35,748 nt of DNA from a virus. Both the position numbers and the translations under genes were made by a program. The stretch is from IMG/VR virus record IMGVR_UViG_3300020163_000009, positions 1 through 35,748 of that record. One strand, written 5' to 3'. Below are positions 3,535 through 35,421 of this stretch, in pieces (the stretch's first letter is position 1; each line of letters begins with the position of its first letter). The notes beneath the pieces were generated by a model. The model was not told the DNA's origin, made no database searches, and saw only the letters and a list, made by a program, of their open reading frames with translations.

Positions 3535-3578
3535 GCCAGTGCCCAGTGTCCTTTTTATAGGACACTGGGCCAGTGCCC
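3535..3578. repeat. Dispersed repeat hairpin after the capsid gene
   Basis: This holds an exact copy of the 13-base repeat GCCAGTGCCCAGT at 3535-3547. GCCCAGTGTCC (3541-3551) pairs perfectly with GGACACTGGGC (3560-3570) around an 8-base loop. The arm then diverges to CAGTGCCC. It lies 6 bases after the capsid stop. It could attenuate transcription or define the 3' end of the capsid message; there is no strong T-run. Confidence 0.85.
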
Positions 3579-3635
3579 TTGTTACCTTTGCTAATTTTAT
3601 TAAATAAAGATACCAAGGCCACTGAGGGTGTAACC

Positions 3636-4109
3636 ATGAATCATACTTCAAGATCGTTATATAAACTAAAACGTAGATTCGCTACAAGTGTAACATTAAA
3701 TAAAAAGTCAAATATAACAACCAATACTAAAACAGGTCGTAAATCCTTTGAACTTAAAACTATAACTATAAGACAGGCAATAGTTATGCCTGCACGTAAT
3801 TATAGAACGTTTGTGTATGATTTAGCTTTTATATCCGCTAATAAAGATTTCACTACTGGCGGTTATTTTGATCCCAATGATCGAAGAGTTGTTATTGATA
3901 AAAAAGATATTCCGTCAGATTGGGTTATAACTAATGACCAATATTTAGTTATAAAAAATAAACATTATCAAATATTAGAAATACAAGATAATGAATCAGC
4001 TTATTCTATTCTTGGTAAAATGTTGCGTGGTGAGTGTAGTGTAATAGGCATACCTGTTATTAGTGTATTAACTCTTGATCACAGTTCCGAAGGAACGCTA
4101 AATGTCTAA
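3636..4109 (+). CDS. Head closure / neck protein
   Basis: ATG 3636 follows GAGGGTG and gives 157 residues. The longer open frame from 3573 runs into the hairpin region and is less likely. The protein has a basic, poorly structured N-terminus. A beta-rich core follows with G-Y-F-D-P-N-D-R-R-V-V-I-D, then S-D-W-V-I and Y-L-V-I-K-N-K-H-Y-Q-I-L-E-I. That order is familiar from small phage proteins encoded between capsid and tail-terminator genes. The function is inferred from position and this pattern. It overlaps the next gene by 8 bases. Confidence 0.5.
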   Translation: MNHTSRSLYKLKRRFATSVTLNKKSNITTNTKTGRKSFELKTITIRQAIVMPARNYRTFVYDLAFISANKDFTTGGYFDPNDRRVVIDKKDIPSDWVITNDQYLVIKNKHYQILEIQDNESAYSILGKMLRGECSVIGIPVISVLTLDHSSEGTLNV

Positions 4110-4725
4110 TACACACCATGTAACAGTTAATAGTAATATATCATTACTGGGCACTGGATTAGTTTCCAGACCAGCAGATGTATCTAATTTATTAAGTCTA
4201 TCTAGTTTTACTAGTGTAAACTTCAAAGAACATTTTATAAATCCTAATTGGTTACGGTGGGTTCATGCTTCTATATGTACTCATTTCGATACATATAAAA
4301 CAATATATCCTTTATATATCGAAGGGGATGAACGTACTACTGGTGATAATGCAGAATTTGCAGAATTACGTGTAGATGGACCTTTAATAAAAATACCACA
4401 AAAAGGGTTATTTTATTTGGATTATGATATAAACATACTTATACAATCTCATATGGACCCTAATAGTTTATACAAAATGTACGATGCTATGGGTACTTTT
4501 TTGAAAGCAATGATATTAAATATACAAGTGTACAAGTATGGGGACGGTCCATTGGATGATCAATCTTTTATAGGTTGTCTACGCTATATACAATCTGACC
4601 GGTCTGCTGGTAGAGGAATAGAAATAAATACTTTTGGTATCATACGGCAGGATACTAGAATTACACAAGCAACAGTTGAAAGTCATTTTTGTTTAGAGTT
4701 AACTGATCCGGCTATCTTTGGTTGA
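4102..4725 (+). CDS. Tail terminator/tail completion-like protein
   Basis: The 207-residue protein is encoded between the neck gene and the tail-tube genes, where siphophages encode tail terminator or completion proteins. It has a helix with N-W-L-R-W-V-H-A-S-I-C-T-H-F and beta-strand-rich sequence with G-L-F-Y-L-D-Y-D-I-N-I-L-I, a general feature of terminators. I see no diagnostic motif. Near the start, bases 4146-4157 (ACTGGGCACTGG) match 12 of 13 bases of the dispersed repeat and are read in frame as part of S-L-L-G-T-G. The name is inferred from gene order. Confidence 0.45.
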   Translation: MSNTHHVTVNSNISLLGTGLVSRPADVSNLLSLSSFTSVNFKEHFINPNWLRWVHASICTHFDTYKTIYPLYIEGDERTTGDNAEFAELRVDGPLIKIPQKGLFYLDYDINILIQSHMDPNSLYKMYDAMGTFLKAMILNIQVYKYGDGPLDDQSFIGCLRYIQSDRSAGRGIEINTFGIIRQDTRITQATVESHFCLELTDPAIFG

Positions 4726-4764
4726 CCTATTTTAGTAACCCTCTGTTTAGATAAGGAATGTGCA

Positions 4765-5544
4765 ATGGCTGTAATTGATATTCGAGAAGCTACTATTAAA
4801 TTGTGGGATGGTACGTTGCCCACTAAGACTGTACTGACAGACGTTGTTATAAACGCTGCTAGTAAACACATGGGTTCTCAACAGATTTCTGTAACTATTG
4901 TTGCACCCACTGGTGGTACTGTTACTTTAGGTGCTACTGTTTCAGGTTATGATATAACTATTACCCTAGGGTATGCTACTGGGGCTATAACTACTACTCG
5001 TGCACAACTTGTTACATTTATCAATGCAACGGCTGTTACTAAGGCATTAATTAGTGCTACTGGTACTACTGCTACGTTATGCGCAGGCGTTGCTAAATTT
5101 TATCTTACAGGTCAACAGAGTCTTACCTGCAAGATAGGTGAAGGTAACTTAACATATAGTGAACAACGAAAAGTTAAGTTTGTGTTAGATCGTGGAGAGA
5201 TGGACACTGTTAAATTGGAGAACGATGAACCTGTTGATTTATCGTTCGACTTCACTTGGGAGTTTCTAATTGCTAGTAGTGGCGGGGTTGAGACTATTGA
5301 AGAAGTTCTTAAGAAACAAGGTGAAGGTGCTAGCTGGTTATCAACGGCTGATGACCCTTGCCAACCTTACTGTGTTGATGTTGAGTTGTTAAATGTACCA
5401 GGGTGTGCTGGTATAGATAACGAACAGATTATGTTTGAAGAATTCTATAAAGAATCCTTAGCCCATGATCTAAAAGCTGGTACGGTTGCTTGCAAAGGTC
5501 GTTGCAATCGTGTTAATGCTACTATTCGCCGAGATGCTGCGTAA
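4765..5544 (+). CDS. Major tail (tube) protein, copy 1
   Basis: This 259-residue protein starts after AAGGAATG and has a paralogue of the same length directly downstream. The N-terminal segment (M-A-V-I-D-I-R-E-A) and C-terminal half (E-G-N-L-T-Y-S-E-Q, then F-D-F-T-W-E-F-L) read as a tail-tube fold. Between them (about residues 40-115) is a beta-rich insertion with the phrase S-G-Y-D-I-T-I-T-L, a type common in phage virion proteins. Five Cys residues are shared with the paralogue (D-D-P-C-Q, Y-C, P-G-C-A-G, A-C-K-G-R-C). Position before the chaperone and tape-measure genes supports the tube role. Confidence 0.7.
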   Translation: MAVIDIREATIKLWDGTLPTKTVLTDVVINAASKHMGSQQISVTIVAPTGGTVTLGATVSGYDITITLGYATGAITTTRAQLVTFINATAVTKALISATGTTATLCAGVAKFYLTGQQSLTCKIGEGNLTYSEQRKVKFVLDRGEMDTVKLENDEPVDLSFDFTWEFLIASSGGVETIEEVLKKQGEGASWLSTADDPCQPYCVDVELLNVPGCAGIDNEQIMFEEFYKESLAHDLKAGTVACKGRCNRVNATIRRDAA

Positions 5545-5591
5545 CAAATAATACTTAAGTACATAACTAATTAAGTACAAGGAGACTTGAA

Positions 5592-6371
5592 ATGGCTGTG
5601 ATTGATATTCGCGAAGCTGTTATTAGGTTATGGGATGGCACAGTTCCTACTAAAACTGTGTTGACTAATTTGTTACTTACTGCTGTGCCAAAGCATCTTT
5701 GTTCGCAACAGATAAGTATAACTATTATTGATCCGGCACAAACCACTACTTTAGGTGTGGTTACTACTGGTTTCGATATAGTTGTTACACTTGGTTGGGC
5801 AACTGATGCGGTTACTACTGATCTCGACGCAATAGTAACTTTACTTAATGCTGACGCTGATGCTAAATTATTAGTGTTAGCTTCTTGCGCTACTGGTGGC
5901 GATGTTTTAGCTGCTGCAGTTGTTAAGACTTATCTTACCGGGCAGAACAATCTGGAAGTTAAGGTAGGTGAAGGTAATTTAACTTATAGCGAACAAAGCA
6001 AAGTTAAATTTATTCTTGATCGTGGTTCGTTAGATTCTGTTAAAACAGAGAATGACGAACCTGTTGATTTGTCGTTTGATTTCACTTGGGAGTTTTTGCA
6101 AGCTAGTACAGGCGGTGCTGAAACTATCGAAGATGTTCTTAAGAAAACTGGTGAAGGTGCTGGTTGGGTTAGTTCGGCAGATGATCCGTGTCAAGCATAC
6201 TGTATCGATGTCGAATTGATGAATGAACCAGGTTGTGCCGGTATCGAAAGTGAACAAATTCTATTTGAGGAATTTTACTACGAAAATCTTTCACATGATC
6301 TGAAAGCTGGAACTGTTGCGTGCAAGGGGCGTTGTAACCGATCTGTTGTAACTATAACACGGGGAGCGTAA
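5592..6371 (+). CDS. Major tail (tube) protein, copy 2
   Basis: This is a tandem paralogue of the preceding gene, also 259 residues, with its own strong ribosome-binding site (AAGGAGA). The last ~145 residues are highly similar, including the block N-D-E-P-V-D-L-S-F-D-F-T-W-E-F-L and all five Cys. The insertion domain in the N-terminal half has diverged much more. One copy may form the tube while the other forms a minor or decorated variant, or both may mix in one tube. The spacer at 5545-5591 contains the direct repeat TTAAGTAC twice. Confidence 0.7.
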   Translation: MAVIDIREAVIRLWDGTVPTKTVLTNLLLTAVPKHLCSQQISITIIDPAQTTTLGVVTTGFDIVVTLGWATDAVTTDLDAIVTLLNADADAKLLVLASCATGGDVLAAAVVKTYLTGQNNLEVKVGEGNLTYSEQSKVKFILDRGSLDSVKTENDEPVDLSFDFTWEFLQASTGGAETIEDVLKKTGEGAGWVSSADDPCQAYCIDVELMNEPGCAGIESEQILFEEFYYENLSHDLKAGTVACKGRCNRSVVTITRGA

Positions 6372-11872: not shown

Positions 11873-11877
11873 CTTAA

Positions 11878-11916
11878 GCCAGTGCCCAGTGACCTTTATA
11901 AGTCCAGTGGCCAGTG
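11878..11916. repeat. Dispersed repeat after the tape measure gene
   Basis: An exact GCCAGTGCCCAGT lies at 11878-11890, 5 bases after the tape-measure stop. It is followed by an A/T-rich centre with GACC...GTC pairing and a degenerate second arm (GTCCAGTGGCCAGTG). It separates the tape-measure gene from the next gene (ATG 11959). Confidence 0.75.
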
Positions 11917-12565: not shown

Positions 12566-13397
12566 GTTATTTTACCAAGATATACTCAGCGAATTAAGTG
12601 TGGTTCATAGTAATGAACCACACGGTAATACTAGTTATATCTTGGTAGATGAACTAGTACTAAATCATTCGGTTGAGTTAACTCGTACTATAAGTAATGT
12701 GCACGTTACGCAAGCGATTACACTTGCGTCACGTGCACAGAGATGTATTATAGCCAGTGCCCAGAACTCTCTTAGTCTTACACAAGAAGGGAGAGAAGTA
12801 AAATGGGAGGAAGTAGATAGTGTACTTAGTCTTGTTTCACTGGGCACTGGCTTTTTAACTAATCCTGTGAGCAACGACTTTGTCGTTGCTCACACAGTAA
12901 GTATTTCTGTTTTATATAATAGAACTAGTTCGCTAGTGTTGACTAGTCTAGTCACTTGCCAATTAATATCTAAAGCCTATAAAGTACAAACAGGTCCACC
13001 ATATGTTCCCCCACATAATTCTAGAATACAGTTGACTTATTCTCCAGTTGGATATGGTAGTATTATACTAACTCTTCGCAACCCTATATTTACAGATACT
13101 GACACGGTAGAATATAGACGTATAAATCGTAGATCAAGAGGTAACACGTTACAGATATTTAGAGATGCTATATGGCCTGTAGCTAATAGGTTAAATTATA
13201 CTTTTAATGATTTGTCAGATAGCGAAAAAAGTGACCTATTATCTTTTATGGAAACTAGTATAGGAAAACAAATAACATTAGTAGACTATGAACAACGTAA
13301 CTGGTTAGGTATAATTATTACACCTTCAGCAGATATAAAACAAACTTTTGAACAAAATAATAGTGTTAATCTACAGTTTGAAGGAACCCTAGTGTAG
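12564..13397 (+). CDS. Tail-type structural protein, paralogue of the first gene
   Basis: This 277-residue protein ends in a ~110-residue domain resembling the end of the first gene in the window (S-D-L-L-S-F, Q-R-N-W-L-G-I-I-I, V-N-L-Q-F-E-G). The N-terminal ~110 residues are beta-rich repeats with L-V-L-N-H-S-V-E-L. That part of the DNA is packed with inverted repeats: 12573-12584 with 12636-12647, 12598-12607 with 12614-12623, 12699-12714 with 12723-12738, 12753-12764 with 12840-12851, and 12867-12878 with 12882-12893. One pair is the genome-wide dispersed repeat, read here as A-S-A-Q and L-G-T-G. A tail or distal-tail role is inferred from position between tape measure and hub. Confidence 0.6.
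   Translation: MLFYQDILSELSVVHSNEPHGNTSYILVDELVLNHSVELTRTISNVHVTQAITLASRAQRCIIASAQNSLSLTQEGREVKWEEVDSVLSLVSLGTGFLTNPVSNDFVVAHTVSISVLYNRTSSLVLTSLVTCQLISKAYKVQTGPPYVPPHNSRIQLTYSPVGYGSIILTLRNPIFTDTDTVEYRRINRRSRGNTLQIFRDAIWPVANRLNYTFNDLSDSEKSDLLSFMETSIGKQITLVDYEQRNWLGIIITPSADIKQTFEQNNSVNLQFEGTLV
12753..12851. repeat. Dispersed repeat pair inside a coding gene
   Basis: GCCAGTGCCCAG (12753-12764) and ACTGGGCACTGGC (12839-12851) form an inverted pair enclosing about 75 coding bases. Both are translated in frame. The second arm is followed by TTTTT, so on RNA it would resemble the downstream half of a terminator within the gene. Confidence 0.85.
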
Positions 13398-17833: not shown

Positions 17834-17868
17834 ATTAGTCCCTAAGCCAGTGCCCAGTAACTAAATAC

Positions 17869-17903
17869 GAAAAAGCCCGCACATGACATGTGTGGGCTTT
17901 TTC
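17869..17903. terminator. Bidirectional intrinsic terminator
   Basis: GAAAAAGCCCGCACAT (17869-17884) pairs with ATGTGTGGGCTTTTTC (17888-17903) over 16 positions with one G-T and a 3-base loop. A and T runs on the two sides make it work in both directions. It separates the convergent virion operon and minus-strand operon. The stop codon of the small minus-strand gene begins inside its right arm. Confidence 0.92.
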
Positions 17904-18073: not shown

Positions 18074-18113
18074 GAATACACCTTTTTACAAATACACTGG
18101 GCACTGGCTTAGT

Positions 18114-22897: not shown

Positions 22898-22933
22898 GCC
22901 AGTGCCCAGTGACAAATATATGTCCAGTGGCAC
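22898..22933. repeat. Dispersed repeat in the primase-helicase leader
   Basis: Exact GCCAGTGCCCAGT at 22898-22910, an A/T centre with GAC/GTC pairing, and a degenerate second arm (GTCCAGTGGCAC). On the minus strand the perfect arm is followed by TTAGAAAGGAT and the ATG 18 bases later, so it forms part of the 5' leader of the primase gene. Confidence 0.78.
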
Positions 22934-22940
22934 TTACTAT

Positions 22941-23581: not shown

Positions 23582-23745
23582 GCCAGTGCCCAGTAACCAA
23601 AATATGTTAAGGAAGTAACCCTGATACTGAGTGATAACTGATACTTTTCGCAAAGTTACTTTTCGTGGTCTATCGTGGGCCTCACTTAGTGCCCTATCCA
23701 TACGGCATATTTCAGTCTACTAAATAGTGTTTACTGGGCACTGGC
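23582..23745. repeat. Dispersed repeat pair around a non-coding 134-base spacer
   Basis: GCCAGTGCCCAGTAA (23582-23596) and TTACTGGGCACTGGC (23731-23745) pair over 15 bases, two more than the core. The spacer has no convincing gene. It contains CTGATAC twice as a direct repeat and GTAAC/GTTAC that could pair. Confidence 0.85.
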
Positions 23746-23968: not shown

Positions 23969-23981
23969 ACTGGGCACTGGC
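23969..23981. repeat. Dispersed repeat, single copy
   Basis: Exact ACTGGGCACTGGC, preceded by TTT and followed by TTA. No inverted partner lies between this and the copy at 23733, so the two flank the 61-aa gene as direct repeats. Confidence 0.85.
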
Positions 23982-24578: not shown

Positions 24579-24582
24579 ATAA

Positions 24583-24915: not shown

Positions 24916-24934
24916 ATAATTACCCTTTATTATA

Positions 24935-25249: not shown

Positions 25250-25263
25250 AATATGTTCCTTAG

Positions 25264-25664: not shown

Positions 25665-25671
25665 AATAAAT

Positions 25672-25845: not shown

Positions 25846-25846
25846 A

Positions 25847-26110: not shown

Positions 26111-26125
26111 ATACTATACCTTTAA

Positions 26126-26337
26126 GCCAGTGCCCCTTAAACACACTTTTTGGACAAGAAAATAGTTGGTAAATTAAACAGTTTGTATTCTATGGTTGGT
26201 AAATCTACTAAGCCAGTGCCCAGTACACAATACTAGGTGTCGTTGGTAAATTTATTCAAAGCGACACATACTTTGTTAAACTTATCACTAGTACTATTCT
26301 TACCATATACTGGGCACTGGCTTAGTAAATTTACCAA
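26126..26337. repeat. Repeat cluster with TTGGTAAAT sites
   Basis: There is no gene in 26111-26340. A truncated repeat (GCCAGTGCCCC) lies at 26126-26136. An inverted pair has 29-base arms at 26196-26224 and 26309-26337, matching at 28 positions. Each arm is TTGGTAAAT, then CTA-AGC-type linker, then the 13-base core. TTGGTAAAT also occurs at 26166-26174 and 26243-26251. GTGTCG/CGACAC may pair in the spacer. The sites may be operators or iterons. Confidence 0.8.
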
Positions 26338-26340
26338 TAC

Positions 26341-26571: not shown

Positions 26572-26697
26572 AGTTAAGTTCCTTTGGTAAAAATGTTTGA
26601 TAAATTTATTATAACTTTTTTCTAAGCCATACTGGAAAGGGTTCTTCTGACATCATATAACCGATATTCAACCAAAAATAAAGCGGAAAATTTGTGG

Positions 26698-26849: not shown

Positions 26850-26891
26850 ACTAGATCACCTATATTGCCTAGGTCACCTATTTTGCCTAGC
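26829..26891. repeat. 18-base iterons in the control region
   Basis: TCACCTATATTGCCTAGG (26856-26873) and TCACCTATTTTGCCTAGC (26874-26891) are adjacent, with a third degenerate copy at 26829-26846 and a half copy TTGACTAGA between. The period of 18 is not a multiple of the DNA helical turn. Iterons like these often bind an initiator or repressor. The first copy overlaps the end of the pseudoknot element. Confidence 0.7.
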
Positions 26892-27032
26892 TTAACCCCT
26901 CTTTTGGGGGACACAACTATATACATGCTACGCGAGAAAATTTTCGGATTTTATTTTTGTTTCTGGCCGTTTTCGGTTATATGATGTTGCAGTTTGTAGT
27001 GGTCTGGAAAAAAGATATGTTAAATAGTTAGT

Positions 27033-27081
27033 TTTATCAAGACAGTGTTATTAAAAGATGCTGTTGATAAAGTTAACACTG
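27033..27081. promoter_or_regulatory. Second interleaved inverted repeat (A-B-A'-B')
   Basis: TTTATCAA (27033-27040) pairs with TTGATAAA (27064-27071). CAGTGTTA (27043-27050) pairs with TAACACTG (27074-27081). All 16 pairs are perfect and the order is pseudoknot-like. It ends 4 bases before GTGAGGG, the ribosome-binding site of the three-codon leader. It could fold in the leader RNA or form a compound protein site in DNA. Confidence 0.6.
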
Positions 27082-27098
27082 AAAGTGAGGGTATTAAA

Positions 27099-27110
27099 AT
27101 GACCGATTAG
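27099..27110 (+). other. Three-codon leader frame (Met-Thr-Asp-stop)
   Basis: ATGACCGATTAG follows a strong GTGAGGG ribosome-binding site at 27085-27091. A good initiation signal on a three-codon frame just after an interleaved repeat is unusual. It may regulate translation or be a remnant of a lost gene. Confidence 0.4.
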
Positions 27111-27126
27111 TTTCTTTTATTTGAAA

Positions 27127-27180
27127 GCCAGTGCCCAGTTATACTTAACTACTATATGTTATTTATAACTTGACACTGGC
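27127..27180. repeat. Dispersed repeat hairpin upstream of the ParB gene
   Basis: The arm 27127-27143 (core plus TATA) pairs with TATAACTTGACACTGGC (27164-27180) at 15 of 17 positions. Inner bases match beyond the core although two core bases differ, and the loop is A/T-rich. Confidence 0.82.
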
Positions 27181-27270
27181 TACTGTTGTTTGTTTCTGTT
27201 TGTTTCTGTTTCTTTTATCACGCGTAATACACGCGGGTACTACACCACTTGGTGGGAAAGTTTATTTATC

Positions 27271-28257
27271 ATGGCTCAAACTGTTTTGAAACACATCGCC
27301 CTTTCTGATATTGTTCCCCCGGATGAAGGTTTGCGTAAAGTCAACCTTGAAGGTGAGAAGTTTATGGGGATGGTTGAATCTGTTAGGTTGAAGGGTATTA
27401 TGAACCCTATCAACGTTCGTGAGCTGCCTACGGGTAAGTATGGATTGGTTGACGGTTTGCACCGTTTTACTAGTGCAAGTTTTGCCGGTCTTACCACTAT
27501 CCCTGCCCAGGTTATTGAGTGTAGCGATGCTGAACTTATGGAAGCTCAGATTATTGCTAACTTGCACAAAGTTGAAGTGCACCCTGTTGAGTATAGCCGC
27601 GGTTTGCTGACTATCTTGCAGTCCAACCCTCTTTTGACTAGGGCAGAACTTTCTGCTAAATTAGCCAAGACTACTAGCTGGCTCAGTGAACGACTTGGAC
27701 TTTTGGATCTCGAAGAGTCTATCGGTACTATGGTTGACGCCGATCAGATCGGTTTGTCCAATGCCTATTCTTTGGCTAAATTGGACCCGGTTGAACAACT
27801 TGAGTTTGTTGACCGTGCTATCTCTATGCCGCCTGCTCAGTTTATGGCAACTGTGAATGGGCGTGTTAAGGAAATCCGTGACGCTAAGCGTCAAGGACGT
27901 GATCCTAAGGCCGCCGAATTTCAGCCTGTGGCTGTCATTCGTAGTCGTGCGGAATTGGTTGAAGAGTCTATTAATAAGACTCAGGCGTCACTATTGACTG
28001 TTAAGTTTAACATTAACGATCCTGTTTCTGCTTTCCAACTTGGTATTCAGTGGGCTATCAAGATGGACCCGGATAGTGTCTTGGTCCAGGTTGCCAAGGA
28101 TGCCGAACGTAAGGCTGAGAAGGCACGTATTAACGCCGAAAAAGATGTCGAACGGCGTGATAAGCGTGCTAAGGAAGCTGTCGCTAAGGCCGCTAAATTG
28201 GCAGAAGATGCTGCTGCCGCTATTGCTGCTAAGATTGCCGCTCACGCTCTTGTGTAG
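27271..28257 (+). CDS. ParB-like partition/DNA-binding protein
   Basis: ATG 27271 gives 328 residues; an in-frame extension to 27190 overlaps the T-rich leader. The N-terminal domain holds L-V-D-G-L-H-R-F-T-S-A (59-69) and A-N-L-H-K-V-E-V-H-P-V-E-Y-S-R (96-110), as in ParB/Spo0J CTP-binding domains. A helix-turn-helix follows (about 124-147, A-K-L-A-K-T-T-S-W-L-S-E-R-L). The C-terminus is a long Ala/Lys/Glu helix. It may bind phage DNA sites for segregation, replication or transcription control. Codons are GC-richer than neighbours. It is the first gene of the right operon. Confidence 0.8.
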   Translation: MAQTVLKHIALSDIVPPDEGLRKVNLEGEKFMGMVESVRLKGIMNPINVRELPTGKYGLVDGLHRFTSASFAGLTTIPAQVIECSDAELMEAQIIANLHKVEVHPVEYSRGLLTILQSNPLLTRAELSAKLAKTTSWLSERLGLLDLEESIGTMVDADQIGLSNAYSLAKLDPVEQLEFVDRAISMPPAQFMATVNGRVKEIRDAKRQGRDPKAAEFQPVAVIRSRAELVEESINKTQASLLTVKFNINDPVSAFQLGIQWAIKMDPDSVLVQVAKDAERKAEKARINAEKDVERRDKRAKEAVAKAAKLAEDAAAAIAAKIAAHALV

Positions 28258-28493
28258 TAACTTTATCTACACCTAGTATCCACACTTGATAGAACTGCTA
28301 GGTGCTAGGACCAGTGCCCAGAGGGATAAGACGCTAGTATTGTTATAAGAACGTGCTAACTCTGGGTATTGGTTTTATTTAACACGCCAGTGCCCAGTAT
28401 TCAGGGATATATAAATATCACTGAATACTGGGCACTGGCAAAGTGATCAAATATTAGTAATGAAAACTAAAATTTAACATTAGAAAGATTAAA
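28258..28493. repeat. Intergenic region with three stem structures
   Basis: There is no gene here. CACCTAG (28270-28276) pairs with CTAGGTG (28298-28304). ACCAGTGCCCAGAG (28310-28323) pairs with CTCTGGGTATTGGT (28360-28373), where the two changes from the core are both G-T wobbles on the plus-strand RNA. GCCAGTGCCCAGTATTCAG (28386-28404) pairs perfectly with CTGAATACTGGGCACTGGC (28421-28439), with GATAT/ATATC adding a further stem in the loop. Confidence 0.85.
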
Positions 28494-29159
28494 ATGTCTA
28501 CCGAACAAACTACTGAACTGATTCCGATGAAAGCTCTTGGCTTAACTCTTCCAAGTGAGTTAAATTTACCCGAAGCTCTTACCAAAACTAGTAGTTTTCT
28601 ACCGCAGGTACGTGTATACGGGAGTGAGAGTAGTCTGGTTAAAGAGGGAAAATTCCCTATGGGGCACTTTGGCCTGTACCATTCTGCTAATCAAATCGTT
28701 GATCTTGGTACTAGTTTTAGTTGTATCAACATCTGGGCACGTTCACGTGCGAGTGTTGTTGTAGGTGAACAACCTATTTCTCACTATAAGTTTGAAAGTG
28801 CTGAGTTTCAAGATTTTCTTAACAAAGCTCAAGCCGGGGAAGAAGGATATCTTGCGGGTCTTGAGTATCTTTTATGGCTTCCTAGTGTTAAGAATTTCGC
28901 GTTATTTTTGTTTGGTAACAAAACTCTTCGACGCGAATCCGCTAACATGAAAGCGTTGATTGGTAGAGCAGCAACTGCTGAGATTAAACTTATCAAAACG
29001 TCTAAGTATACTTGGCACGGTTGCAGTATTTATCCTTGTTCTACTCCGTTTGATATGCCTTCAATGGAAGATATGCAAGCACAGGTGGAAATCTTTAAGA
29101 ATCCTGTGGAATCTGAGATTGAATTGGCTACTGCTAAGAGTAGTGGGCGTAGTCGGTAG
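28494..29159 (+). CDS. Conserved phage protein, possibly nucleic-acid binding, unknown
   Basis: This 221-residue protein has G-H-F-G-L-Y-H-S (about 57-64), then N-I-W-A-R-S-R-A-S-V-V-V and a central helix E-E-G-Y-L-A-G-L-E-Y-L-L-W-L-P. F-A-L-F-L-F-G-N-K-T-L-R-R-E follows, then Y-T-W-H-G-C-S-I-Y-P-C-S-T-P and a final S-M-E-D segment. Mixed strands with many aromatics could suit an ssDNA-binding role in replication, but this is inference. Codons are relatively GC-rich, suggesting strong expression. The last codons and the stop lie in a 16-base tandem repeat. Confidence 0.6.
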   Translation: MSTEQTTELIPMKALGLTLPSELNLPEALTKTSSFLPQVRVYGSESSLVKEGKFPMGHFGLYHSANQIVDLGTSFSCINIWARSRASVVVGEQPISHYKFESAEFQDFLNKAQAGEEGYLAGLEYLLWLPSVKNFALFLFGNKTLRRESANMKALIGRAATAEIKLIKTSKYTWHGCSIYPCSTPFDMPSMEDMQAQVEIFKNPVESEIELATAKSSGRSR

Positions 29160-29221
29160 TGGGCGTAGTCGGTAGTGGACGTAGTAGGTAGTGGACGTAG
29201 TAGGTAGTGGACGTAGTAGGT
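29142..29221 (+). repeat. Five tandem copies of a 16-base repeat
   Basis: The unit AGTGGGCGTAGTCGGT occurs at 29142 and 29158, then as AGTGGACGTAGTAGGT at 29174, 29190 and 29206, with a degenerate continuation. The first copy supplies the end and stop codon of the upstream gene. Because 16 is not a multiple of three, copy-number change would alter only a short C-terminal tail. Confidence 0.92.
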
Positions 29222-29244
29222 AGTTGGTGGGTGGTGTGGCGTGG

Positions 29245-29314
29245 ACCAGTGTGTAGGTAAAGGTACGTCATAGTCCTTGTGGTGTAAGCCTACAAAGAAG
29301 CATAACACACTGGT
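29245..29314. repeat. Inverted repeat in the leader of the exported-protein gene
   Basis: ACCAGTGTGT (29245-29254) pairs with ACACACTGGT (29305-29314); inside, TAGG can pair with CCTA. It resembles a diverged dispersed repeat (CCAGTG core) and lies 28 bases before ATG 29343. Confidence 0.7.
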
Positions 29315-29342
29315 TTTATTTACTCTGAAAGGTAAATTTATT

Positions 29343-29570
29343 ATGAAGAAGACTTTGTTTATTATGACTGTGTTGTGTTTGGGTCTGTGTGCGGATGCTA
29401 GTGCGTGTGGTATTTTGGGCTGGAACTTTCCCATCGCCCGTGCCGTAGCTAATCGTGTACGCTGCAATCGAGTTGTTGTAACATCGGTTGCTCCTACTAC
29501 GGTTCTAGTGCGACCTATTCTGGTTCGGCCTATCTTGCGTGGTGGGTGTGTTGGCGGTGTCTGTCGGTAG
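29343..29570 (+). CDS. Small exported Cys-rich basic protein, 75 aa
   Basis: ATG 29343 follows GAAAGGTAAATTTATT. The N-terminus is a classical signal peptide: M-K-K, a hydrophobic run (T-L-F-I-M-T-V-L-C-L-G-L), then A-D-A-S-A before C-G. Cleavage would leave about 54 residues with four Cys, strongly basic, with a repeat V-R-P-I-L-V-R-P-I-L and a G-G-C-V-G-G-V-C-R end. It should reach the periplasm or cell surface. The A-S-A-C segment is a poor lipobox. A role in superinfection exclusion or host envelope change is possible but not shown. Its stop codon lies in a tRNA-like fragment. Confidence 0.65.
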   Translation: MKKTLFIMTVLCLGLCADASACGILGWNFPIARAVANRVRCNRVVVTSVAPTTVLVRPILVRPILRGGCVGGVCR

Positions 29571-29583
29571 GTTCAAATCCTAG
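29567..29583 (+). pseudogene. tRNA T-arm remnant
   Basis: GTAGGTTCAAATCCTAG matches the T arm of the tRNA 110 bases downstream (GTAGGTTCGAATCCTGC) at most positions. TAGG/CCTA can pair around a TTCAAAT loop. No matching acceptor, D or anticodon arms lie upstream. It also provides the stop codon of the exported-protein gene. Confidence 0.6.
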
Positions 29584-29595
29584 AAGAGTAGTTTT

Positions 29596-29643
29596 GTACT
29601 AGTATACAAGAATTCCTATGAGACAGGCAAAGTATACTAGTAC
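29596..29643. repeat. 12-base inverted repeat upstream of a tRNA
   Basis: GTACTAGTATAC (29596-29607) and GTATACTAGTAC (29632-29643) are perfect inverse copies with a 24-base spacer. The right arm ends 2 bases before the tRNA-like gene, so it may affect 5' processing. Confidence 0.8.
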
Positions 29644-29645
29644 TT

Positions 29646-29716
29646 AGTTCTGGAGTGTACTGGAAACACGTCTCTTATTGTTAGAGGTATTGTAGGTTCG
29701 AATCCTGCCAGAACTA
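29646..29716 (+). tRNA. tRNA-Gln-like (UUG) with non-canonical A33
   Basis: The 71 bases form acceptor AGTTCTG/CAGAACT, D arm GTGT-ACTGGAA-ACAC, anticodon stem TCTCT/AGAGG with loop TATTGTT, a 4-base variable region, and T arm GTAGG-TTCGAAT-CCTGC. The loop gives anticodon TTG (Gln), but position 33 is A instead of the near-universal U and position 37 is T. It may be a degenerate or specialised tRNA. CCA is not encoded. Confidence 0.65.
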
Positions 29717-29732
29717 ATTTAGTAAATATATT

Positions 29733-30281
29733 ATGAAAACACAAATATTAAAAGTAACTGAGACTAATGTACGTTGGCTTGATTTACTTGGGTCAATACA
29801 GTCCGCTATTGGATTATCTATTATGGACCCAATAGACCGTTGTTCTATTAAATTTAGTGATGCAGCAAAATATCTTATACTATTAAATTTACTTGACAAT
29901 AATTATGATGACCCTATAGACGTTCTAAAGATATTAAGAAATACCGATCCTTACTCTCTTAACTTTTTACACTATACGTTTTTGGTAGTTGGTGATGATG
30001 ACTATGTTGAACTAATACAAAAACATAGTCAACTAAAAATAGTATGCAAGTCTACTAGCGATACTAATAGTGGGTTACTTTCACTAGTTTCAGGTTCACT
30101 TAGGGAATGGTACGATTTCATTAATAGTTGTCTTTGTCGGGACAATAAAATATTACCTAATAAAGATACTATTCTGGTAGATATGTTTATGTTAGAGTTC
30201 ATGAATCTTGGGTTGGGCGATCTTTGGTTCAATTATCAACGTAAGTATAAAAAAGATTTTTTCTTGTTGGAGAAGAGATGA
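29733..30281 (+). CDS. Hypothetical protein, 182 aa
   Basis: The product is rich in Leu, Asp and aromatics and largely helical, with L-L-G-S-I-Q-S-A-I-G near the N-terminus. F-L-H-Y-T-F-L-V-V-G-D-D-D-Y and S-L-R-E-W-Y-D-F-I lie in the middle, and L-E-F-M-N-L-G-L-G-D-L-W-F-N near the end. I considered a ThyX resemblance (a helix with R-x-W) and did not find its nucleotide-binding motifs. Family unknown. It overlaps the next gene by 4 bases, suggesting coupling. Confidence 0.58.
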   Translation: MKTQILKVTETNVRWLDLLGSIQSAIGLSIMDPIDRCSIKFSDAAKYLILLNLLDNNYDDPIDVLKILRNTDPYSLNFLHYTFLVVGDDDYVELIQKHSQLKIVCKSTSDTNSGLLSLVSGSLREWYDFINSCLCRDNKILPNKDTILVDMFMLEFMNLGLGDLWFNYQRKYKKDFFLLEKR

Positions 30282-30514
30282 GTAAAACTAACAGTACACA
30301 GAAGCCAGTGCCCAGTGTACAGAAGCCAGTGCCCAGTAACTGGGTACAATTATCTGAACACTTGTCTTTATTGTTTCTACCTAGAAATTTTATTAGACTT
30401 ACACACAGTGCACCAGATAGTAGACAAGAAATAGTAATGACCGACACAGAACTTGATAACTTTATTAAAGAACTATTAAAACGTAAAACTCCAGTGCCCG
30501 GTGTTGAACAATAG
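30278..30514 (+). CDS. Small protein with translated dispersed repeats, 78 aa
   Basis: The start overlaps the upstream stop. Two exact repeats (30304-30316, 30325-30337) lie 21 bases apart and are read in frame as Q-K-P-V-P-S-V-Q-K-P-V-P-S. A third near copy (30491-30500) gives T-P-V-P-G at the C-terminus. The middle is helical (L-S-E-H-L-S-L-L-F-L, L-D-N-F-I-K-E-L-L). The repeats thus supply Pro-rich peptide tails. Family unknown. It may be a genuine gene invaded by the repeat. Confidence 0.62.
   Translation: MSKTNSTQKPVPSVQKPVPSNWVQLSEHLSLLFLPRNFIRLTHSAPDSRQEIVMTDTELDNFIKELLKRKTPVPGVEQ
30304..30337. repeat. Two tandem dispersed repeats in frame
   Basis: Exact cores at 30304-30316 and 30325-30337 with a 21-base period (seven codons). 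The second is followed by AACTGGGTAC, so CCCAGT/ACTGGG forms a tight hairpin. Confidence 0.9.
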
Positions 30515-30542
30515 GTAGACTAACGTCCCTCTTTAGTAGATT

Positions 30543-30555
30543 ACTGGGCACTGGC
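30543..30555. repeat. Dispersed repeat arm in the helicase leader
   Basis: Exact ACTGGGCACTGGC, 20 bases before the helicase ATG and followed by TTTTAGAAAGATAT. A degenerate partner CCAGTGCCCG lies upstream at 30491-30500, within the preceding gene. Confidence 0.88.
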
Positions 30556-30575
30556 TTTTAGAAAGATATATCAAC

Positions 30576-32528
30576 ATGATAGTTAAATTTACGACTGGCA
30601 AGTACCTAGTACCAGTAAATATGACAGTTGTAGGCAAACGTATAGAATTTGAGTTTCCTTATAATAAAATTTTGCTATCTGAAATAAAGTCGATGAAGGG
30701 TGCTAAGTGGCACGGCTACGATGATCCAAATCCACGTAAGATTTGGTCTATCAGTGACTGTGCACGTAACCGTTTTCAGATTGCTTTCTTAACTGGTGTG
30801 GATGTTTATGGAGACTATGATAAGCCTCTGTTAAATATATCTCCAACACGTACTATTCTACGTGTTCACCAGGTCGAAATGTTTCAACACATGGTAACGC
30901 GTGAGCGTTGCATTGTAGCAGGTGAGACAGGCGTAGGTAAAACTCTTTCTGCTATCGAAGCTGTTGAACACATTATCAGTAGAGTCGACGAACAGACTAA
31001 TTTTACCAAAAAGCCAGACATTGTGTGGATTGGTCCTAGGTCTGCTCTGGCTGGAGTGAAACTAGAGTTTCGTATCCGCGGTGCTAAATTTGTGCCACGT
31101 TGGATGACCTATGATCGTATGCGTATCAGTGTCGAAGATGGCACTATGGTTACGCCAGATATTATTATCTTTGACGAGTCATCTAAACTAAAGACACCTA
31201 CGGCTAAGCGATCACAAGCGGCCGCAGATATAGTTGAACGAATGGAAGAAAAATCTGATGGTATCGGGCACTATGTTTTCCTAATGTCTGGTACACCAGC
31301 TCCTAAAGATCCAACTAACTGGTGGATGCCTTGCGAAATAGCAAAGGCTGGCTTTCTTAAAGAAGGTGATATTAACAAACTAAAACAACGCATGGCACTG
31401 ATTGAAAATAAAGAATCGATTAGTGGTGGCGTGTATCCTGAACTTATTACTTGGTTGGATGATGAACGAAAGTGTGCTAAATGTGGCGAGTTAAAAGAAA
31501 CACATAATAGTGATCCATTACTAGGTGACGCATATCATGCCTTTGTACCATCGGTCAACGAAGTTACCATGTTGTACAAGAGGTTGCAGGGTCTGGTATG
31601 TGTTAAACTTAAGAAAGATTGTCTCGACCTACCAGAAAAACAATTCAGAAAGATTATCCTCAAACCTTCAGCCTCAACATTGCGAGCTGCTAGTATTATT
31701 ACTAGAACGTCTCCGAGAGCCATCCAAGCTATTACGCTGCTACGAGAACTGTCGGACGGTTTCCAGTATGAGGACAAACCTAATGGTACAACCATCTGTT
31801 CGACTTGCAATGGCACTAAAGAAATTTTCGAATTTTTCGACCCTGAGTTACCTGATGAGGCGATATCGGATGCAGCGTTACAATCTGGCAGATGTATCCA
31901 AAAAAGTATTAAATGCCCAAATTGTAATGGCACAGGAGAAGTGCCGAAATTTATTCGAGAGGCACAAGAGATTGCGACTCCAAAAGAACAACTGTTTGTA
32001 GATTTATTAGACGAGTACGAACCTTTGGGCAGGTTTGTTACTTTTGCAGGTTTTGAGGCATCTATCGACAGGTGTGTTAGGGTAGCTCTTAAATGGGACT
32101 GGGATGTTATTAGGGTTGATGGTCGTGGTTGGTCGTATATTAGTAAGGTCAACGCTACTAACGTAGCGTTGACTGATGTAGATATGCTAGCCAGGTTCCA
32201 GGATAAAAATAATGAAACCAAACTTGTTTTTATTGGAAATCCTAGTGCTGCAGGTATGGGTATCACTCTTACCGCTTCTCCTGCTGCTTTTTACTACTCC
32301 AATACCTATAATGGAGAGGATCGGTTACAGAGCATGGATCGTATCCATCGCATGGGCATGGATATTAACCGTGGTGCTACTATCATTGACTGTATTCATC
32401 TGACTATTGACCAATTAATTCTGGACAATGTTCAGAAGAAAATTGATCTACAAGCTCTAACAATGGGTGACTTTAGTAAACTTATCAATGACTTGCCAGT
32501 ACTAATTGGTGAGGAGTATGAAACATGA
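30576..32528 (+). CDS. SNF2-type superfamily 2 helicase with zinc-binding insertions
   Basis: The 650-residue product has an N-terminal ~90-residue domain with a G-A-K-W-H and W-S-I-S pattern as in HARP-like helicases. Motif I is G-E-T-G-V-G-K-T (116-123), motif II F-D-E-S-S (about 199-203), motif III M-S-G-T-P (237-241) and motif VI Q-S-M-D-R-I-H-R-M-G (585-594). An insertion has C-A-K-C-G-E (300-305) and two DnaJ-like C-x-x-C-x-G units, C-S-T-C-N-G (408-413) and C-P-N-C-N-G (447-452). Such enzymes remodel forks or recombination intermediates. The stop overlaps an ATG (ATGA) opening a three-codon frame. Confidence 0.85.
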   Translation: MIVKFTTGKYLVPVNMTVVGKRIEFEFPYNKILLSEIKSMKGAKWHGYDDPNPRKIWSISDCARNRFQIAFLTGVDVYGDYDKPLLNISPTRTILRVHQVEMFQHMVTRERCIVAGETGVGKTLSAIEAVEHIISRVDEQTNFTKKPDIVWIGPRSALAGVKLEFRIRGAKFVPRWMTYDRMRISVEDGTMVTPDIIIFDESSKLKTPTAKRSQAAADIVERMEEKSDGIGHYVFLMSGTPAPKDPTNWWMPCEIAKAGFLKEGDINKLKQRMALIENKESISGGVYPELITWLDDERKCAKCGELKETHNSDPLLGDAYHAFVPSVNEVTMLYKRLQGLVCVKLKKDCLDLPEKQFRKIILKPSASTLRAASIITRTSPRAIQAITLLRELSDGFQYEDKPNGTTICSTCNGTKEIFEFFDPELPDEAISDAALQSGRCIQKSIKCPNCNGTGEVPKFIREAQEIATPKEQLFVDLLDEYEPLGRFVTFAGFEASIDRCVRVALKWDWDVIRVDGRGWSYISKVNATNVALTDVDMLARFQDKNNETKLVFIGNPSAAGMGITLTASPAAFYYSNTYNGEDRLQSMDRIHRMGMDINRGATIIDCIHLTIDQLILDNVQKKIDLQALTMGDFSKLINDLPVLIGEEYET

Positions 32529-32662
32529 AATATTGACCCAAGATTAAAAATAACAAAAGAGCGTTGCCCACTCGCATGGACACTATTGCATCCAGAAGAA
32601 GCCAGTGCCCAGTGTTAATGAATCTACAAATATTACTGAACCAGGGGCACAAGGATAAATAT
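32525..32662 (+). pseudogene. Interrupted upstream frame before the 79-aa gene
   Basis: ATG 32525 overlaps the helicase stop as ATGA, but the frame ends after Met-Lys-Tyr at TGA 32534-32536. After that stop the same frame is open all the way through the next gene to 32902. A single nonsense change may have shortened a longer protein whose functional start is now at 32663. No readthrough evidence exists. This could also be coincidence. Confidence 0.35.
32602..32650 (+). repeat. 49-base direct repeat, copy 1
   Basis: This segment is identical to 32846-32894 over 49 bases. It begins with the dispersed repeat (exact core 32601-32613) and ends in GGGGCAC. It lacks the final CTGGC arm, where copy 2 is complete. 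Confidence 0.93.
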
Positions 32663-32902
32663 ATGTTATTCAAAGATATTATGGTTGGTGGTAGTTTTAC
32701 TAGATCAAGTAATGAAACTTTGGTTTGGACACGATCTAATGAATTTACTGCTTACGGTAATATTATAAAACAAAATGCTGCTGCTTACAACAAACCAAAT
32801 GGGCCGTGGCATTACGATAGAATAAGTGATGACGAAGAAGTTAATCCAGTGCCCAGTGTTAATGAATCTACAAATATTACTGAACCAGGGGCACTGGCTT
32901 AG
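32663..32902 (+). CDS. Hypothetical protein, 79 aa, with repeat-derived C-terminus
   Basis: ATG 32663 follows AAGGATAAATAT. The product begins M-L-F-K-D-I-M-V-G-G-S-F and contains N-E-F-T-A-Y-G-N. The last ~19 residues (N-P-V-P-S-V-N-E-S to A-L-A) are encoded wholly by the second 49-base direct repeat and the dispersed repeat. The family is unknown. The tail was probably added by repeat insertion or duplication. Confidence 0.6.
   Translation: MLFKDIMVGGSFTRSSNETLVWTRSNEFTAYGNIIKQNAAAYNKPNGPWHYDRISDDEEVNPVPSVNESTNITEPGALA
32846..32894 (+). repeat. 49-base direct repeat, copy 2, inside a gene
   Basis: Identical to copy 1. CCAGTGCCC (32846-32854) and GGGCACTGG (32889-32897) form the hairpin arms. 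The stop codon (TAG) of the 79-aa gene immediately follows the second arm, and ATG 32914 lies 15 bases downstream. Confidence 0.93.
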
Positions 32903-32913
32903 AAAGTATTAAT

Positions 32914-33096
32914 ATGATAGTTAAACTACAAGTAGGTGATAAAGTTATTAGGCGTGGCGAAGACCCTAATGAAGTTTTTACTATCGAAAAAGAATACGAT
33001 TGTGGTGGAGTATTTCTGATAGGTACAAGAACTTATTTTTGCGATATGGTACCAGAATCACATCTAGTAAAAGTAACAGTGCCTCTATCCCATTAA
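32914..33096 (+). CDS. Small beta-barrel-like protein, 60 aa
   Basis: The product begins M-I-V-K-L-Q-V-G-D-K-V-I-R-R and continues V-F-T-I-E-K-E-Y-D-C-G-G-V-F-L-I-G. This strand pattern suits an SH3/KOW-like barrel, often seen in small phage proteins. No function is known. A dispersed repeat arm ends 15 bases before the start. The next repeat begins after the stop. Confidence 0.55.
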   Translation: MIVKLQVGDKVIRRGEDPNEVFTIEKEYDCGGVFLIGTRTYFCDMVPESHLVKVTVPLSH

Positions 33097-33097
33097 C

Positions 33098-33110
33098 ACT
33101 GGGCACTGGC
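33098..33110. repeat. Dispersed repeat arm before the second ParB gene
   Basis: Exact ACTGGGCACTGGC followed by TTAGTAAACTAATAAAGG and ATG 33136. The corresponding left arm is degenerate (ACAGTGCC at about 33076). Confidence 0.88.
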
Positions 33111-33135
33111 TTAGTAAACTAATAAAGGTATTATT

Positions 33136-34014
33136 ATGTCAACTGAAACCTATATTACAGAACATGCTATAGTCGAAGGTAAAACTGCCTACGAAGTACC
33201 TATGGCAAATATCTTTAGTGATCCCGTATTTAATACACGTGGTGGAGTAGTTCCTATCGACGTGATAGAATTATCTAAAGATATTGAAACACATGGACTA
33301 CTTATGCCTATACTTATCCGAAACCTTAAAGAAGGTGAGGATATGTGTAGCAAATATAAGTTCAAAATTGTTTCAGGTCATCGTAGACATATGGCGTATC
33401 GCGTACTTAAACGCACACATATTCCTAGTTTTATCGAATATAATATGTCCGAAAGCCGGGCACTAATAATTAATATTGGAGAGAATATACATCGTAGAGA
33501 TCTTAATATTCTTCAAGAAGCCTACGCTATACAGCGTCTAAAAATGACAGGTTTCAGCCCAGTTGAAGTAGGTAGAGAACTAGGTAAATCGTCTACCTGG
33601 GTACAAACTCGGTTTGAGTTGTTAGATTTACCAGAAGAAATTAAACAAGCTGCTGCAGCTGGTATAATTAAACAAAGTCAGATTCATGATATATATAAAC
33701 TACCAGACATGGCATCGCAATACGAAGCCGCTAAGAAAATTAAGTCTGCTAAAGCATCAGGTGAAAAGACTCCACAGATTATGAAGCCAAAGAGAGTTAT
33801 GCTCTCTAAAAAAGTGAGAGATAAACGTGAAATCTTTCAGATGATGAGTCACATCCAGGAATCTATAGGTAACAATTTTGGTACACGTTGCCTAGCTTGG
33901 TGTGCTGGTGAAATAATGTCTTTGGATATCTATAATGATATCTACCATGCTGCTGTGGCAGCTGGTAAACTATATAATATTCCACAAGATGAGGCTGCGA
34001 AACCTAATATCTAA
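33136..34014 (+). CDS. ParB/Spo0J-like protein, second copy
   Basis: This 292-residue protein has I-V-S-G-H-R-R-H-M-A-Y-R-V-L (78-91), where G-H-R-R matches the ParB GxRR CTP-binding motif. It continues with I-G-E-N-I-H-R-R-D-L-N (114-124) and a helix-turn-helix (about 140-165, V-G-R-E-L-G-K-S-S-T-W-V-Q-T-R). It is closer to canonical ParB than the 27271 protein. No ParA is present in the window. In phages such proteins may control transcription, replication or segregation, and the dispersed repeats are candidate sites. AAAGG precedes the ATG. Confidence 0.85.
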   Translation: MSTETYITEHAIVEGKTAYEVPMANIFSDPVFNTRGGVVPIDVIELSKDIETHGLLMPILIRNLKEGEDMCSKYKFKIVSGHRRHMAYRVLKRTHIPSFIEYNMSESRALIINIGENIHRRDLNILQEAYAIQRLKMTGFSPVEVGRELGKSSTWVQTRFELLDLPEEIKQAAAAGIIKQSQIHDIYKLPDMASQYEAAKKIKSAKASGEKTPQIMKPKRVMLSKKVRDKREIFQMMSHIQESIGNNFGTRCLAWCAGEIMSLDIYNDIYHAAVAAGKLYNIPQDEAAKPNI

Positions 34015-34026
34015 AGGTAATATAAA

Positions 34027-34284
34027 ATGATATACAAATGTATACAAATAGTAAAAAATAAAGTAGATGGTAATTATCAGTGGGAAGTTAAATTTAAGTT
34101 AGACGGTACAGATAGAGAAGATAAAGAGTGTGTACCAAATCCAATGGGCCATTTTTGGTACCCTACTACAATGTCAGATAGTGGTGCTTTTGATACTCTT
34201 GTAATATGTATGATAAACGCTCATAATGCAGAAATAGAAAAACTGGAAACAAGTCTTATTAGTCTTATTGGATTAACATTATAA
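34027..34284 (+). CDS. Hypothetical protein, 85 aa
   Basis: The product begins M-I-Y-K-C-I-Q-I-V-K-N-K-V-D-G with alternating strands, has C-V-P-N-P-M-G-H-F-W-Y-P in the middle and a C-terminal helix (N-A-E-I-E-K-L-E-T-S-L). AAAGG precedes the ATG. Family not recognised. It is closely spaced between the ParB and methyltransferase genes. Confidence 0.58.
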   Translation: MIYKCIQIVKNKVDGNYQWEVKFKLDGTDREDKECVPNPMGHFWYPTTMSDSGAFDTLVICMINAHNAEIEKLETSLISLIGLTL

Positions 34285-34296
34285 AGAGTAATATAA

Positions 34297-34833
34297 ATGT
34301 TATATAATAATAAATTAAACGAATACGAAAAAGAAATATATGACAGATTTAATAGTTTTCACTCGTATGATTTACGAGATAAGATGGTACAGAAGTACGC
34401 TTGGGCTATACCTAATGAACAAGCAATCAGTAAACTAGTAGAACTGTCCCCGCTAATAGAGATAGGTGCCGGTGCTGGATACTGGGCAAAGTTAGTAGAA
34501 GAAGCCGGTGGTAAAATAGTTTGTTATGATATTGAACCGCCTTTAACGCAGTGGCATCCTATATGGAAAAGTGAACCGCATGTAATAAAACAGAGATATA
34601 TTTTACGTACTCTGTTTCTTTGTTGGCCACCTTATGAAGAATCTATGGCTGCCGATTGTCTAAAATTATACAAAGGACGTACTCTAGTTTATGTAGGTGA
34701 AGGTTATGGTGGTTGTACAGGTGATGATAACTTTCATGAAGAATTAAAGAATAATTGGTTACTATGTGATAGATTAGAGATACCACAATGGTACGGTATT
34801 CATGATTCTATGTATATCTATAAAAGGAAATAA
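34297..34833 (+). CDS. SAM-dependent methyltransferase-like protein
   Basis: The 178-residue product has a Rossmann motif I, L-I-E-I-G-A-G-A-G-Y-W (53-63), followed by the acidic strand end V-C-Y-D (75-78) that would hold the ribose. L-F-L-C-W-P-P-Y-E-E (106-115) corresponds to the motif IV position, as (D/N)PPY in amino-methyltransferases, here C-W-P-P-Y. T-L-V-Y-V-G-E-G-Y-G-G-C-T-G-D (129-143) follows. The methyl acceptor is unknown; a small molecule or protein is as possible as DNA. The usual acidic residue of DPPY is replaced by W. Confidence 0.65.
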   Translation: MLYNNKLNEYEKEIYDRFNSFHSYDLRDKMVQKYAWAIPNEQAISKLVELSPLIEIGAGAGYWAKLVEEAGGKIVCYDIEPPLTQWHPIWKSEPHVIKQRYILRTLFLCWPPYEESMAADCLKLYKGRTLVYVGEGYGGCTGDDNFHEELKNNWLLCDRLEIPQWYGIHDSMYIYKRK

Positions 34834-34839
34834 TTACAA

Positions 34840-34893
34840 GCCAGTGCCCAGTAATACTGATTATATATTTAATACTGATTACTGGGCACTGGC
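34840..34893. repeat. Perfect dispersed repeat hairpin upstream of the HNH gene
   Basis: GCCAGTGCCCAGTAAT (34840-34855) pairs with ATTACTGGGCACTGGC (34878-34893) at 16 of 16 positions. The loop contains AATACTGATTA twice. The second arm runs into TTAGTAAATTTATAAAGG and the ATG at 34920. Confidence 0.93.
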
Positions 34894-34919
34894 TTAGTAA
34901 ATTTATAAAGGTAATTATA

Positions 34920-35189
34920 ATGGATAATAATACTTTTACAATGACAGACGTTCAAGCTGAACGGTTCTGGTCAAAGGTTATGATCGGAGATAAAGATGCT
35001 TGTTGGGCATATCTAGGAGATACTATTGATAAAAATAGCCGTCCTAGGTTTGCAGTAGGTAAACGTACTATCATGGCTCATAGAATAAGTTTCTTTCTAG
35101 AATATGGTGATATGCCTGATAAAGGTATAGAACGTACCTGTAAGAATTCGTTGTGTATGAATCCTAGACACATGCAATTGGTTGAATAG
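34920..35189 (+). CDS. HNH endonuclease-like protein with altered active site
   Basis: The 89-residue product has the order of phage HNH proteins: F-W-S-K-V (16-20), C-W-A-Y-L-G (28-33), M-A-H-R-I-S (52-57) and C-K-N-S-L-C-M-N-P-R-H-M (74-85). In the usual pattern an H lies two residues before the first Cys (H-x-C); here it is Arg72 (R-T-C), while N81 and H84 remain. The enzyme may be inactive or changed in specificity. Such genes are often mobile. It sits directly after a perfect dispersed repeat hairpin. Confidence 0.78.
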   Translation: MDNNTFTMTDVQAERFWSKVMIGDKDACWAYLGDTIDKNSRPRFAVGKRTIMAHRISFFLEYGDMPDKGIERTCKNSLCMNPRHMQLVE

Positions 35190-35201
35190 TATAACAATTA
35201 A

Positions 35202-35274
35202 GGGACTGTAGCTCAGTGGTGAGAGCAATTGCCTTATAAGCAATAGGTCGTTGGTCCAATTCCAACCAGTCCTA
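35202..35274 (+). tRNA. tRNA-Ile (UAU)
   Basis: Acceptor GGGACTG/CAGTCCT, D arm GCTC/GAGC, anticodon stem ATTGC/GCAAT with loop CTTATAA (anticodon TAT), a 5-base variable loop, and T arm GTTGG-TCCAATT-CCAAC with discriminator A. It decodes ATA, a codon very common in this genome and usually rare in bacteria. CCA is not encoded. Confidence 0.93.
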
Positions 35275-35281
35275 CTGGTAA

Positions 35282-35365
35282 GGTTATGGCAACGGTCCGT
35301 ACATTTTACCGTTTTGATATAACCGTAATAACACGGTTAGGAAAGTCCTACGGGACACTCCGTTA
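35282..35365. other. Structured non-coding segment after tRNA-Ile
   Basis: Nested pairings occur: GGTTAT (35282-35287) with ATAACC (35319-35324), and AACGGT (35291-35296) with ACCGTT (35308-35313). An alternative stem AACCGT (35321-35326) with ACGGTT (35333-35338) competes with the first. Downstream GTCC/GGGAC and ACGG/CCGT can pair. No gene is seen. It may be a small structured RNA or part of the tRNA transcript. Confidence 0.42.
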
Positions 35366-35368
35366 TAA

Positions 35369-35421
35369 GCCAGTGCCCAGTATCAAGATATAGTAAATAT
35401 AACTGGATCAGTGGCACTGGC
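35369..35421. repeat. Dispersed repeat, diverged second arm
   Basis: Exact core at 35369-35381. TAAGCCAGTGCC (35366-35377) pairs with GGCACTGGCTTA (35413-35424), while the inner part of the second arm differs (ATCAGTGG). The spacer is A/T-rich. Confidence 0.82.

Follow-up and report, generated by a model that had tools for sequence, protein, structure and literature searches.

An array of dispersed, inward-facing heptad-dimer repeats in the genome of an uncultivated virus

Several systems of short repeats resemble the array described here. The ribbon-helix-helix protein omega of pSM19035 has heptad operators, in which 7-bp units adjoin in direct or inverted orientation, and T4-type phages reportedly carry mobile promoter/stem-loop cassettes whose stem-loops lie at gene junctions and have been copied within phage genomes. 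The stoperators of cluster A mycobacteriophages are 13-bp, asymmetric, dispersed sites, bound singly by the phage repressor to lower transcription. The REP/BIME elements of bacteria are short, intergenic, facing inverted repeats, often located past stop codons, that form stable hairpins and occur in many copies, with REPs of 20-40 bp (REPtron). In cluster K mycobacteriophages a dispersed 13-bp repeat, the start-associated sequence (SAS/ESAS), is biased to the right half of the genome and to larger intergenic gaps, and has some inverted repeats; the SAS, GGGATAGGAGCCC, lies in a single orientation at 3-7 bp from start codons, and RNA pairing is not supported by the inverted repeats (PMC3203893). 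The STRR/TAACTGA repeats are built of 7-bp units with an ACTG/CAGT core, are intergenic and have no conserved target genes. TAACTGA heptamers form tandem direct arrays in the cellular genomes of Beggiatoaceae, cyanobacteria and Bacteroidetes, where a role in translation regulation has been suggested; phages are not mentioned (MacGregor 2015, PMC4679880).

The window analysed here is the whole of a 35,748-bp uncultivated virus record. It contains 22 exact copies of GCCAGTGCCCAGT, the number that the original prediction had counted, with 13 on the plus and 9 on the minus strand, and 32 copies when up to two mismatches are allowed, against 0.31 expected from dinucleotide shuffles (largest shuffle 2). 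The predicted enrichment towards the right end is also evident, with 19 of the 22 exact copies located from 17846 rightwards. No other dispersed word repeated in this way was found in the window. The array is real and virus-borne, and is not an artefact. The 13-base unit first proposed has the right sequence, but two 7-bp units describe it better: in an autocorrelation of the window, CAGT is followed by CAGT at +7 on 30 occasions, against about 2 at other offsets, which makes the 13-mer a dimer of heptads, CCAGTGN CCAGT, often with AAG or TAAG directly before it. At 30302-30341 the heptad phase runs through five units, of which one is degenerate, and several right arms reach a third unit (ACTGAAT ACTGGGC ACTGGC in the hairpin at 28386; ACTGATT ACTGGGC ACTGGC in that at 34840). 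The window also carries two tandem repeats, a 16-bp repeat (GTAGTGGRCGTAGTNG) at 29140-29235, where gene 28494-29159 ends, and a 54-bp coding repeat at the left edge (1-162; TKTVDDTLVLDQTVLVGI).

When core sites are merged, 24 remain in the window, with the strand order ++-+-+-++--+-++-+-++-+-+. The arms face inward (CCAGT...ACTGG). Gaps from a plus site to a minus neighbour are 40-935 bp, gaps from minus to plus are 489-7,733 bp, and close +- neighbours exceed -+ neighbours (permutation P 0.00065), in agreement with the inverted pairing first proposed. Because the arms face each other, a transcript of either strand would fold into a similar stem of 12-30 bp. Measured between their outer edges, six hairpins are 53-54 bp long and the other elements span 39 to ~960 bp, the compact forms being 39-54 bp and the spaced pairs longer. 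Five of the six are 54 bp in length: 27127..27180, upstream of the first ParB-like gene and with two mismatches in its right arm; 28386..28439, with 25-nt arms and two exact copies; 32601..32654, with a degenerate right arm; 32845..32898, which makes the C-terminal codons of a small gene and abuts its stop; and 34840..34893, with two exact copies, which begins 7 nt past a stop. The sixth, of 53 bp (35369..35421), is downstream of tRNA-Ile. A short hairpin at 22898..22937, whose left arm is exact, lies between two minus-strand genes. Among the longer forms are a pair with 30-nt arms at 26196..26337, 97% complementary and with exact copies at 26212 (+) and 26309 (-), and a 164-bp pair of exact copies at 23582..23594 (+, left arm) and 23733..23745 (-, right arm), the latter 7 nt past a minus-strand gene stop. 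Another exact copy, 23969..23981 (-), is positioned between a minus-strand gene and tRNA-Leu. Folded as RNA, the compact perfect hairpins are very stable: that at 28386 gives -43.4 kcal/mol (z -11.0) and 26194-26339 gives -69.4 kcal/mol (z -11.7). For 32595-32657 and 11873-11916 the fold is no more stable than that of shuffled sequences. No common sequence was found in the roughly 240-bp loops, the longest shared word being 10 nt.

The sites in the window are mostly intergenic. With a gene list that we derived from ORFs, six of the 24 sites begin within 13 nt past a same-strand stop (6, 6, 7, 7, 7 and 13 nt), whereas sites placed at random between genes give a mean of 1.23 (P 0.0006). An exact 13-mer with a short hairpin at 3535..3578 (+) begins 7 nt past the capsid gene stop (-30.1 kcal/mol, z -6.1), and an exact copy with a second direct copy (CCAGTGGCCAGT) at 11878..11915 (+), an element 89% like 22895-22931, begins 6 nt past the tape-measure stop. 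At the convergent junction 17833/18114 one arm follows each stop: the left arm, an exact copy at 17846..17858 (+), is 13 nt past the plus-strand gene stop, and an exact copy at 18096..18108 (-) is 6 nt past the convergent minus-strand stop. Between these arms lies a two-way intrinsic terminator-like hairpin (17870..17902), read by eye and missing from the terminator scan. A further exact copy, 33098..33110 (-), is 1 nt past a plus-strand stop and has 19-nt complementarity to the 32845 arm.

The original prediction placed most of the repeats at gene boundaries; a few, at 4146, 12753/12839, 30304/30325 and 32845, lie within genes or at their ends. The one-mismatch copy at 4146..4158 (-), which faces 3535, falls within a 17-residue N-terminal extension. 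A one-mismatch copy at 12753..12765 (+), with no indel at the motif relative to related viruses, and an exact copy facing it at 12839..12851 (-) are both coding. Two exact copies in heptad phase at 30304..30337 (+) encode QKPVPSVQKPVPS close to the beginning of a 78-aa ORF, and are faced by an exact copy at 30543..30555 (-), directly before the helicase gene start. The 3' flanks of the hairpins, read directly, contain no U tracts, so that these are not ordinary terminators. Intrinsic terminators (GC stem plus U run) were likewise rejected in a terminator scan of 17000-35748, which returned no site of the repeat family. An Rfam search of the window found tRNAs only, and no other curated RNA family. 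Rfam places a third tRNA at 29646-29716 (+), absent from the ARAGORN output.

By the membership tests run, the array is outside the known families. It shares the features of REP/BIME elements given above, with compact forms of 39-54 bp, but its sites are viral, heptad-built and without TnpA-REP (Y1), and direct reading revealed no regular GTAG/CGTC foot beside the arms. Like the STRR repeats it has tandem 7-bp units, mostly two in the window and up to eight in the closest relative found, but its units are CCAGTGN, with only the CAGT/ACTG core in common with TAACTGA, and its dimers stand in facing pairs rather than in direct arrays. It differs from SAS in sequence, in occurring in both orientations and in having matching arms, and from the stoperators in sequence and in the pairing of its sites. 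The T4-type cassettes are similar in having stem-loops at junctions that are copied, but the phage is unrelated and no early promoter is shown linked to the stems in the window. The omega operators also consist of adjacent 7-bp units, but their sequence differs and the array has no conserved ribbon-helix-helix protein.

Relatives were gathered by a primase search, which gave L128 (54% primase identity to the window, motif absent), by alignment of the window and L128, which gave 68 loci, and by a helicase search, which gave further loci. Phage records held no near DNA match to the window. The closest relative found, G001 (L129; 54,819 bp), is co-linear with the window and 51-59% identical to it in the helicase, ParB-like proteins, primase and capsid. 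It has one gene where the window has two adjacent paralogues (4765-5544 and 5592-6371; 77% identical over 300 nt), and its orthologue of the gene with the 4146 copy is without the N-terminal extension. G001 also carries the heptads: 25 exact matches to the core fall into 22 separate sites, and one array has ~8 units. Polarity is again inward (P 0.0012), at positions that differ from those in the window. Hairpins are missing at the orthologous junctions checked in G001, those of the capsid gene with the next gene (15 bp), of the tape measure with the next gene (overlap) and of the helicase start (overlap), and no single site is therefore needed. Gene boundaries kept by relatives without the repeats, which the original prediction had named as an outcome that would count against it, are thus seen at several G001 junctions, with the motif elsewhere in that genome. 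Four G001 pairs, 237-392 bp apart, lie wholly within one gene and one pair extends across two genes. In the three G001 genes checked, the copies are in aligned protein stretches (VPVTSGDQ vs VPVSNGDQ; HWSLGQEI vs IQSIGQEI in L128) with no indel at the motif, and they therefore arose by substitution, not insertion.

Among about 85 other relative loci, many of them partial, none has CAGT heptads at the density of the window, with the exception of G004, where six weak CCAGTNNCCAGT sites compare with 0.29 expected. At least 17 relatives carry a dispersed 13-15 bp palindrome of their own, mostly TGATTT-N3-AAATCA, as revealed by an unbiased paired 5-mer scan. These include G005 (69,052 bp; L435-L438), with 51 copies against 0.3 expected, as well as L146, L147, L156 and L421. 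Dispersed palindromes of this type are absent from the window and G001. Other repeats were seen in further loci: L131 has a different direct heptad dimer, AGGCNNNAGGC, with 11 copies over 11.5 kb, on both strands (background 0.6), and L176 and L177 have up to six copies of GGATTACTTAAAC, several of them promoter-like in lying shortly 5' of start codons.

We consider the repeats best read as the arms of dispersed REP-like stem-loops that would punctuate viral mRNA and multiply within the genome, with a probability of about 0.4. Each arm is a heptad dimer (CCAGTGN CCAGT), and the stem-loops might protect 3' ends, act as RNA cleavage points or insulate adjacent genes. The pairing of the arms is supported by their partner-specific complementarity: in the window, flanking bases beyond the core match more between true partners than between swapped partners (P 0.009), and in G001 the variable middle base is the same in seven of eight adjacent pairs (P 0.012), the eighth of which would form G-U. 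Copying of one arm from its partner, without selection for pairing, could give an equal signal. One duplication is clear, the first 50 bp of the 32601 hairpin being identical at 49/50 positions to 32845-32894, with unrelated flanks, and the elements are therefore copied; they may multiply and turn over through copying or conversion of existing arms. It is our inference that the elements act as RNA and punctuate transcripts, and so is their mode of copying. REP-like punctuation would account best for the placement after stop codons, the pairing and the copying, but fails for the in-gene pairs of G001. The options first listed (operator array, RNA processing, mobile hairpins) already held this reading, but the binders named there did not gain support.

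A DNA-binding protein acting on adjacent 7-bp half-sites, in the manner of omega, might instead bridge facing sites, looping or compacting the genome or regulating genes. This accords with the 7-bp phasing over two to eight units, and the in-gene G001 copies that arose by substitution point to selection for a site, not to insertion. The palindromes of the at least 17 relatives are as expected if each virus has one drifting site type; one dispersed site type per virus fits a protein reader with drifting specificity, and an operator array is for this reason retained as a possible, if doubtful, explanation. No matching binder was found among the candidates, however. The ribbon-helix-helix protein (25675-25845, -; Pfam NikA-like) has no counterpart in G001, which carries the same heptads. 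The two ParB-like proteins are present throughout the family, also in members from which the motif is missing, and the motif is not followed by changes in their HTH: L192 and L193 share the helix of the window's ParB1 but not the motif. Nor would a protein site need the match of the middle base between partners. A ParB/parS system was rejected for the window, where the 13-mer lacks palindromic symmetry and dispersed palindromes show no enrichment; the palindromes of the relatives may be parS-like and serve the conserved ParB-like proteins. It is also conceivable, but unlikely, that the facing heptad-dimer sites, kept by substitution even in conserved genes, constitute one cis-signal with its own conserved reader, and that the other dispersed sites of the relatives do the same job, the signal being swapped whole between lineages.

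We consider it equally improbable that a host rich in CAGTNNN arrays seeds the viral repeats through slippage or template switching, with little function. CCAGTGN arrays were found across many bacterial phyla, for example as (CCAGTGC)n in a Phycisphaerales genome, and 278 three-unit windows were counted in the cyanobacterium G150. An 800-kb part of that genome contains 44 arrays of at least three units, nearly all intergenic; a same-strand stop lies upstream of 29/43, often only a few bases away, and opposite-strand neighbours less than 800 bp apart are inward in 4/4 cases. The eight-unit array of G001 (CCAGTGA/CCAGTAA/TCAGTAA) is made like those of G150, and two unrelated viral contigs hold inverted heptad arrays, one of them around a terminator. 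On the other hand, 194 cyanobacteria contain the exact 13-mer about as often as chance predicts and the perfect hairpin occurs in 0/84,980 species genomes, so a host-wide repeat was rejected; the window has dimers, not arrays; an uninformative primase search in 377 cyanobacteria gave no match and no host link; and dispersed copies in conserved coding sequence are not easily explained by a neutral process. Eight heptad-bearing cyanobacteria yielded no heptad hairpins whose arms are separated by 12-42 nt, and 14-mer matches in other viral contigs were single only, at chance level. In the unrelated viral contig L363 (561-624), inverted heptad arrays surround an intrinsic terminator past a stop codon, an arrangement comparable to 17846-18108 in the window.

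Finally, mobile foldback or REP/MITE-like elements served by a transposase in trans are very unlikely: the precise 50-bp duplicate with motif-defined ends, the recurrent 53-54 bp size and the presence or absence of elements at orthologous junctions speak for them, but a search with positive controls found no Y1/REP transposase (PF01797) in the window, G001 or G004, the coding copies of G001 show no change of length at the motif, and no target duplication was seen.

Dispersed hairpins, like heptad repeats, are widespread in bacteria, yet how they function and spread is poorly understood. Here a small viral genome has about 25 sites, and a relative with 50-60% protein identity has the motif at new places. 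The window, G001 and the relatives with other motifs are thus a compact case for following the gain, loss and arm pairing of such repeats.
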